In this document: positions 30,501 through 64,000 of the stretch, piece after piece
Layout of the letters: every line of letters starts with the position of its first letter
How positions within the stretch are numbered: position 1 is the stretch's first letter
NCBI RefSeq assembly: GCF_036370855.1
Contig: NC_088099.1
Location: forward strand, 149,811,517 to 149,875,516
Direction of reading: 5' to 3'
Length of the DNA stretch: 64,000 bases
DNA from: Dromaius novaehollandiae
Taxonomy: Eukaryota; Chordata; Aves; Casuariiformes; Dromaiidae
The notes under the pieces: generated by a model
The model's database searches: none
Told to the model about the DNA's origin: nothing
What the model saw: only the letters and a program-made list of their open reading frames with translations
Made by a program: the position numbers and the translations under genes

Positions 30501-33500
30501 AACCAGATGACATCTTTTCAAATCCGTATTCTCTAGACTGCGCTGTGATCTACTGCATCATGCAGCTACTATTTTGGAAAGAATTTAAGATTTCATTACG
30601 TATATGTATATGCTGATACTAGTAGAGTCATCAGTGAATGGAAACATGACTTACCAGTAAAAACATGAAAAAAATTAAATTGGAACTTTTGAATAAACCA
30701 AAGCTCTGGAGATTACATTTCACTCCAGCCAATGCTTATTCTGAAACGCCACTTCTGAAAAATATTTCCTCAAGAATTTCTTAGTGTAGTTCAGCAGAAA
30801 CACCATGCAAGAATAAGACGATATTTGCTGCACGCATGCGTCTCAAAAGCCAAAAGCTAAATAAATGATATTTAGGAATAATACTGATGGATATGCAGAG
30901 TTTGTCAATTAGAATGTGTCCATAATATAAAGTACCCTCTAAATTTGACTGAAATCAGTAGAAACTCTTCCTTTAAAAGCAATAACATGATTTTATACAG
31001 AAAAAGACCACACACAACAAGCAATACTTAAGTTATAGCAAAAAACTTCCAGCATGGTGGGGCGGGATATGCGTCTGTGTCACAAAAGAAAAAATAACTA
31101 TTTTGAAAATTAAAATAGTAAATTATTGTAGCAACTTAAGAGGATTTTTAAATTCAGTAACATAAGAACTAACGTTCCAGCTCTTACTACACTGGAACAG
31201 CAAATTCTAGATTCATTATTTAACCTGAAGATGACTGGAATCCTCATGAACATGACACATTTTATGCAGAAGAACCACCTCATGAGAGAAACATTGCTTT
31301 TATAAATCTCACACAAAAAGGATTTCTACTTGTTTGGCATAGTACCTAAGTTTTGGTCAGGGCCTGAGTCTCTACTACAGGGAGAAATCATCAGAAAGTC
31401 AGTGGAACAGCTGAGATAATTTCTGTTCTGGTCTGCACATCAACTACCAGATCACTCTTCTTTTTGCAAGCTGCTGTGCTTCTAGCAGTATGACACACTG
31501 AAAATCAAATTACCTCAACTTCTCGGTTGTTGAGAGAAAATATCCTACCTCTGTTCTGTGAACCATCACCCAGTTTCCATCTCCAGTCTGCTTGTGGAAT
31601 TCCAGATAAGGATCTGACTTGCCAAAAAAATCCTGTATTTAAAGAACACGCAATTATCCCAGAACAGCCTGTGGCATGAATGTCATTAAATGCTAGTTAA
31701 AATACACTTAGATTTAACAAGAACTAAACCTAATATTCAGGGAACAAAAACTTGTTATTACTCAGATAAGAAATTTAAGTTAGATTATATTAGCACCTGT
31801 GAAAGAGATACGGAAAACAGCACATAAAAGTTCTGTAGTGCCTATATACTAAATACCTGACAGTTCAAGCAAATTCAGGGGAGTTACTTATACTGTTACG
31901 TAGTCAGGGAGCTACTTATACTACTAAGTTGGACAGTAAGGAAATGATGGATTTGATGCAGTTCAAAAGGTCTCATTAAATCTACCAGAAAAAGTAACAC
32001 TTTTTTCCATTATTAAAATTATTTCAAAAAATATTTTTAAATACAATAATTTCAGCCAGTCCAAAACTATTTAACATAATAGATTCAGGCACTTTAAGGA
32101 ACACAAGTATACTCTCTATCATTTATTTTAATAAGCTTACAGGAGACCAGTTACACAACTGATCACTAATAGATACACAAAAACTCCCTTATCTTTTTAA
32201 TTAAATGTGAAGATTTATATTTAAATGGAGAAGTGCTGTTCTAGGAATATCCCTGCAATAGTTGTAATTTATTTTAAAGCAGTCAATGTTATTCTGAAGT
32301 TATCGTTCTTCATTTTTCTTCTAGTGTAAGCAAAATCTTAATGGACCTGATTACTTCAACCAAACATAAGAATGAACATTTTAATGTTTCCTCTTTTGAC
32401 AAGATTCCAATTTTACTGCTTCATCACAGAAACAGCAATCACTTAAATACCTTATTGTCCAATTTCCTTGCTTCTACTTCCAAAACAACTACTCTGTTAT
32501 CCTTCACTTCTTCTGCTGTAATCTAGGTAAAGAAAATAAGAAAGATTATGTATCTTGTATTCAGAAACTATGTCGTTTTCTCATACTGTTCACAACACTC
32601 CTATGACAGCTTCAAAGCAAATCATGTTTACTCAGAAATGAAGCATTAAGAAACGGGGGAAAAAGAACAATTTGATTTGACATTGGGACTCACTACACAT
32701 CACTGTCTGAAATACATTTAAATTCAGTATTTAAGAATGATGACGTTGGCAATTAAAGATGCTGCCTGAACAGCAGGACGTCAGGTGCTTTACTCTAGCC
32801 CCAACTGATTTCGAAAACTTCCCAGTGCACTTGGAAGTGGTCAAGTGCCTGCTGGCACACTGGCACATGCACAGATACTTCACCCCATGAGCTCTGTCTA
32901 TTCCCCCTTGCTGTCAGAGATGCATGCAGTGAGTCTTCCACATGCAGAAGTTGGGCAACCTTCCCTTTTGAAAACAAAGAAATAATCAGTACAAAAAAAT
33001 CCAGAATGCTGTAAGATATTCTTTCTAGCACTGTGGATTAGACATGCTGTGTTCAAGCCACAAAACAAACCAAACAAACATACAATTTATTAAGGACAAA
33101 TGCTGAAAAGAAGTATTGTCTTACCGTAATACTGCCTTTTCCAGCAGGTCTGCCATTTTTAAGCACTAATGGTTTTGTTAAAGTCTTGGTAGAAACTATC
33201 TGCCAAAACAGAAGTTGAGTATCAAGCATTATTATTAGAGCAATCAAATTGTTTTTCAAATGCATGAAACGAGATAGTGACGTATTTTCATTTTAGGAAT
33301 GTTTCCTTTGTCATGAAGATGAAAGGATTACATTTATTTCCTATTTTCCGCTACAAATAGATAAATAATACCTGATGCATTTCCAATGTAAAAATATACA
33401 TATATGCAGATGAACACATGCAGAGTTTCTGGAGCAGAATAAAACAAAATGCCTTATAGCAACATGATACACATAGATGGACAACAATAGTATCTTAAAT

Positions 33501-63492: not shown

Positions 63493-64000
63493 GTAATATT
63501 TTCAAATTTGGAAGTGTGCAGGTCATTCCAAGGCAAAGCTTGTCACTTTTAGTGCCAGGATCATGTAAGAAAACTGTATAATGTTTTTAAGTTTCTCCAC
63601 TATGTTCAGTGTGTTTCCATGGTAGGATGCTTTTGAATTACGTCAGAGTTTTAGAGCTTAGTGGTGGTTTAATAAGCAGTTCTTTCAAATGTTGCTGAAA
63701 GCAGGTCCAGCATCCTGTCCTGTGTAGGACATGACATGTGCACAGGGTGTGTGACAGCCATTTTGTTGCCCACACTTTAAATAGCTCCTTTTGAAAACAA
63801 TATGGTTCAGTTGGGAGTGCAGTCCAAACTTTAATTAATTTTTAGACTCCTTACTTAATTGAGATTTTTAAGGTGAACACAGTGGAGTTCTCATTTAGTG
63901 TGGTTGAGCAGCACTGCAATCATGTTTCATAAAAAATGAGAAATAACTTTTTTTGGTCAACTTAAAAAAAGGAACAAAGGCCCTGCTTTACCTACCAGAA
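63493..64000 (+). other. RMDN1: RMDN1 intron 2, start (copy 2)
   Basis: Repeat of 47207-47713 with one extra T; intronic and truncated by the window edge. Confidence 0.85.

Follow-up and report, generated by a model that had tools for sequence, protein, structure and literature searches.

Introduction

The closest described counterparts of the locus reported here are false duplications in vertebrate genome assemblies and tandem duplications in repair-deficient worms. In the older assemblies of platypus, zebra finch, and hummingbird, 4 to 16% of the sequence is falsely duplicated, and some of this persists in newer assemblies, according to the portion of PMC9516828 that deals with them. The criteria and examples in that portion involve a gap, either in the assembly or in read depth, and false duplications marked by a read-depth gap in place of a sequence gap are on record there. 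In brc-1 and brd-1 worms, most duplicated segments measure approximately 10 to 20 kb, and loss of polq-1 suppresses the tandem duplications of these worms, as described in the section of PMC7368036 on these strains; the templated-insertion figures in that section cover deletions, and some of the tandem duplications carry insertions.

Here we describe two adjacent, nearly identical copies of a segment that carries the 5' ends of CPNE3 and RMDN1. The window, that is, the whole stretch of 64,000 nucleotides that was analyzed, corresponds to G000:C2:149811517-149875516 of a 1.468-Gb assembly with 271 contigs. The locus resembles the false heterotype duplications treated in that portion of PMC9516828 in that the near-identical copies are adjacent and would split genes into partial models, and it differs from them in that the join lacks a sequence gap and carries an insertion that is partly templated. 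It resembles tandem duplications made by polymerase theta (TMEJ) or by template switching in its head-to-tail arrangement, in a size within the range of about 10 to 20 kb given for brc-1 and brd-1 worms in PMC7368036, and in the lack of long homology at the breakpoints; a short insertion that is partly derived from the flank is a further likeness. Unlike these, it is seen in a vertebrate assembly and from sequence alone, and the inserted bases nearly repeat the junction in which they lie. No report of a CPNE3/RMDN1 duplication was found in the literature listings for these genes, birds included, which in itself says little.

Results

Exact matches of 25-mers within the window fell into a single offset family (16283 to 16288), relating positions 32129-47713 to positions 48413-64000, and alignment confirmed the near-exact direct repeat that a preliminary description had proposed for the same intervals. 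Copy 2 runs past the end of the window by 673 bases, to window-coordinate 64673 (G000:C2:149876189), where the sequence reads GATCATCTA, followed by GTCCAACCCC. Because copy 2 ends at 64673 in the genome sequence, the duplicated unit is 32129-48386 (copy 1, plus strand, 16,258 bp), followed head to tail by 48413-64673 (copy 2, plus strand, 16,261 bp, in the window up to 64000). The left limit proposed earlier, 32129, is retained, and 47713 is merely the point at which the comparison stopped at the window edge, the real end being 48386.

When the alignment was confined to the window, the copies differed by 10 substitutions and 4 indels, as anticipated by the earlier count of about ten substitutions (under 0.1%). 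Two more substitutions in copy 2, opposite 47950 and 47957 of copy 1, lie beyond the window, and the whole unit thus contains 12 substitutions and 4 indels in approximately 16.25 kb, with substitutions at about 0.074% and an identity of about 99.93%. Relative to copy 1, the indels in copy 2 affect a TG repeat (+4), a CCGCA repeat (-5), a GGC repeat (+3), and a single extra T. The copies are collinear and have sharp ends, with no difference in the first 488 or the last 429 bases of copy 1, and the unit alignment includes difference-free gaps of 3.3 and 6.4 kb. Substitutions in copy 1 include those at 45275, 45708, 45813, and 46562. Three adjacent pairs of substitutions lie at most 50 bp apart (32617/32661, 33358/33364, and 47950/47957), more such pairs than expected (a level reached by 101 of 20,000 random draws), and this clustering of the 12 substitutions might reflect local sequence errors.

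The copies, in direct orientation, meet at one novel junction, where they are separated by 26 bp, ATCATAGATAAGCTTACATCTAATCA (48387-48412, plus strand). With its flanks included, the junction reads CATCTAATCATAGATAAGCTTA, then CATCTAATCATAATAAGCTTAC, which amounts to an imperfect 22-bp tandem repeat spanning 48381-48425. This tandem repeat mixes letters of both breakpoints: the right one ends in CATCTA, and at the start of the left one lies the 11-mer ATAAGCTTACA, which the insertion also contains. An 11-mer shared with the left breakpoint was attained by only 3 of 2,000 insertions randomized with a first-order Markov model, and it is through this left-side match that the insertion appears to be copied from nearby sequence; the right-side 6-mer showed no excess over chance (1,032 of 2,000 randomized insertions). 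Two-copy tandem repeats of the junction type (15 to 40 bp, at least 90% alike) number just 14 in 303 kb, the junction included, so that placement of such a repeat at the junction by chance is improbable (well under 1% by our own arithmetic).

Over 1 kb, homology between the breakpoints gave a score of 10 in the forward and 13 in the reverse orientation, within the range of 200 randomized controls (median, 11; 95%, 13; maximum, 17). The right breakpoint lies inside sequence that recurs in the genome, since 37 of the 40 matches scored, among 285 candidates, were short hits to it. We take this recurrent sequence to be an avian CR1 element. The junction sequence as such was met once in the genome, again with 40 of the 285 candidates for the junction probe scored.

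The surroundings were examined in a stretch of 303,483 contiguous bases comprising the window, 210 kb to its left, and 29.5 kb to its right. This stretch contains 0 N, and there is no assembly gap at the join. Each of two probes taken from the unit matched exactly two places in the 271-contig assembly, which are the two copies described above (2 of 2 candidates scored per probe), and thus no alternative-haplotype contig was found; the same two probes likewise revealed no third copy of the unit and no unplaced alternative haplotype. The 303 kb contained no other direct repeat longer than approximately 0.7 kb, the next longest being about 635 bp, and the strongest inverted diagonal consisted of 10 shared 31-mers.

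Exons of CPNE3 and RMDN1 were located by exon-by-exon tblastn with human query sequences. Genes follow one another in the window in the order known from birds: first the 3' part of CNGB3, which a PDB sequence match identified, next CPNE3 (minus strand), and last RMDN1 (plus strand). Pfam identified a Copine domain in CPNE3 and returned nothing for two of the four pieces, which came from CNGB3 and RMDN1. In the PDB, the copine piece matched BONZAI 1, a plant copine, and not copine-3. The names CPNE3 and RMDN1 are based on the similarity to the human sequences, with human CPNE3 as the vertebrate copine compared, on the Copine domain, and on the neighboring CNGB3.

The unit contains a CpG-rich divergent start region, four coding exons of CPNE3, and exons 1 and 2 of RMDN1, so that the duplication does span the 5' ends of both genes, as the preliminary description had held. 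On the minus strand, the CPNE3 exon with the ATG (8 nt of 5' UTR plus coding sequence) is located at 35184-35323 in copy 1 and 51468-51607 in copy 2, coding exon 2, which encodes C2 domain sequence (tblastn and Pfam), at 34390-34569 and 50674-50853, and coding exon 3 at 33125-33199 and 49409-49483, each identical between the copies. Coding exon 4, the last within the unit, is located at 32451-32522 and 48735-48806; the compared part, 32451-32516, is identical, and the acceptor was set by eye 6 nt upstream of the compared edge, which leaves the frame unaffected. The start region, whose promoter function is predicted, covers 45400-47000 in copy 1 and approximately 61690-63285 in copy 2, and its 2-kb bins have a GC content of 0.47 to 0.60 in both copies versus about 0.35 to 0.45 elsewhere. 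On the plus strand, the coding part of RMDN1 exon 1 lies at 46273-46407 and 62556-62690, with the start codon and donor site picked by reading frame, without a sequence match, and exon 2 (112 nt, tblastn) lies at 47095-47206 and 63381-63492. The two copies of RMDN1 exons 1 and 2 have equal translations, and the copy differences listed above all fall outside these exons. Open frames, recognized from their translations, are also present within the unit at 54689-55519; we assume that they are remnants of a decayed CR1 reverse transcriptase.

CPNE3 is continuous leftwards via copy 1, with residues 1 to 533 of the probe matched, and its remainder, which begins with coding exon 5 and reaches the C-terminal region, is present in a single copy at 15489-31632 (minus strand; tblastn and Pfam). 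RMDN1 is continuous rightwards via copy 2, with later exons beyond the window up to window-coordinate 75131; its probe was matched at residues 51 to approximately 243 and 255 to 299, and a search of window-coordinates 72001-93483 with simple patterns did not recover residues 244-254 or 300-314. The leftover halves are one 5' fragment per gene, that of RMDN1 in copy 1 and that of CPNE3 in copy 2. The new gene structure that had been proposed is thus modest: the two 5' fragments are there, and each gene is still continuous through one copy.

Discussion

Our results make it very probable that the locus is a genuine and recent head-to-tail tandem duplication, 16.26 kb in length and non-recurrent, that is carried by the animal, and most likely an ordinary kind of structural variant. 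The preliminary description had left the choice between a recent tandem duplication and two haplotypes assembled in tandem; the former is favored because there is no gap, because the insertion contains the 11-mer of the left breakpoint, and because no third copy was found in the assembly with two probes, and the latter becomes the less likely of the two. The features of the breakpoints look like those of end joining with templated synthesis. A break or a stalled fork would have joined the CR1-like element in RMDN1 intron 2, on the right, to a point 16.26 kb further left, in an intron of CPNE3, and the joining would have generated the 26 bp, partly copied from DNA of the left breakpoint and with at least one switch back. 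The process may have been similar to polymerase-theta end joining or to microhomology-mediated template switching.

An assembly artifact, in which two haplotypes of one 16-kb region, or a version of it produced by read errors, were placed in tandem as a false heterotype or homotype duplication, seems improbable to us. The divergence of 0.074% would also suit two haplotypes of an individual with low diversity, three of the four indels are within simple repeats, as is often the case for allelic differences, and there is precedent in the older and newer vertebrate assemblies covered in that portion of PMC9516828. However, there is not a single N between the copies, and the mere joining of contig ends gives no reason to expect inserted bases that partly copy the flank of a breakpoint; a junction scar of this kind is hard to obtain by concatenating two haplotype contigs. 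The 303 kb examined are also free of any other direct repeat above about 0.7 kb, and none of their inverted diagonals exceeds 10 shared 31-mers.

With the tandem duplication as the preferred reading, the divergence of the copies bears on its age. At a bird mutation rate of about 2 × 10^-9 per site per year, and assuming no conversion, the duplication would be roughly 0.2 million years old or younger. This age lies inside the span of within-species variation, which raises the possibility that the duplication is polymorphic. That the duplication is instead older and fixed, with its copies homogenized by gene conversion, is very unlikely; long identical runs next to clustered differences (the gaps of 3.3 and 6.4 kb and the pairs within 50 bp) would agree with conversion, but its effect is expected to fade near the breakpoints, and yet the terminal 488 and 429 bases are identical. 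Unequal recombination between homologous repeats (non-allelic homologous recombination), which the genome-recurrent sequence at the right breakpoint might have suggested, was rejected as the least probable origin of all, since any homology between the breakpoints over 1 kb stays within the range of randomized controls and an insertion is present at the join.

For a recent tandem duplication, the arrangement of the exons suggests how the genes would be expressed. CPNE3 would be transcribed from the start region in copy 1 and RMDN1 from that in copy 2. Either gene may also start at the other copy, provided that splicing leaves out the duplicated internal exons, in which case normal proteins would be made from either start region; if these exons were spliced in, a frameshifted product would result. 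RMDN1 exon 2, at 112 nt, is a multiple of 3 plus one, so that its double inclusion shifts the frame. The four duplicated exons of CPNE3 consist of 8 nt of 5' UTR and whole codons, and their double inclusion therefore shifts the frame as well, with a stop met soon after. We regard as speculative, and rather unlikely, the further proposal that the locus is a segregating or newly fixed copy number variant that doubles a divergent promoter, giving each gene two promoters and changing the dose of both jointly while coding capacity stays single-copy.

Automatic annotation could call partial CPNE3 and RMDN1 paralogs at this locus, where the pieces are in fact 5' fragments of a recent duplication, and the case is useful as a warning for the annotation of these genes. 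Since the junction sequence was met once in the genome, within the scored share of candidates given above, one PCR could separate carriers from non-carriers. The duplication offers a simple natural test of a doubled divergent promoter, and its frequency and its effects on expression would be easily testable via this junction PCR.

Other repeats were noted along the examined stretch. The 635-bp direct repeat to the left of the window, with 4 mismatches between copies 36.2 kb apart (window-coordinates -133927 to -133293 and -97716 to -97082 on G000:C2), may be a young transposable element that is present in two places. Within the window, an in-frame 21-bp tandem repeat with a KKPEQ-like translation is located at 7863-7920, in an open frame downstream of a CNGB3 exon.
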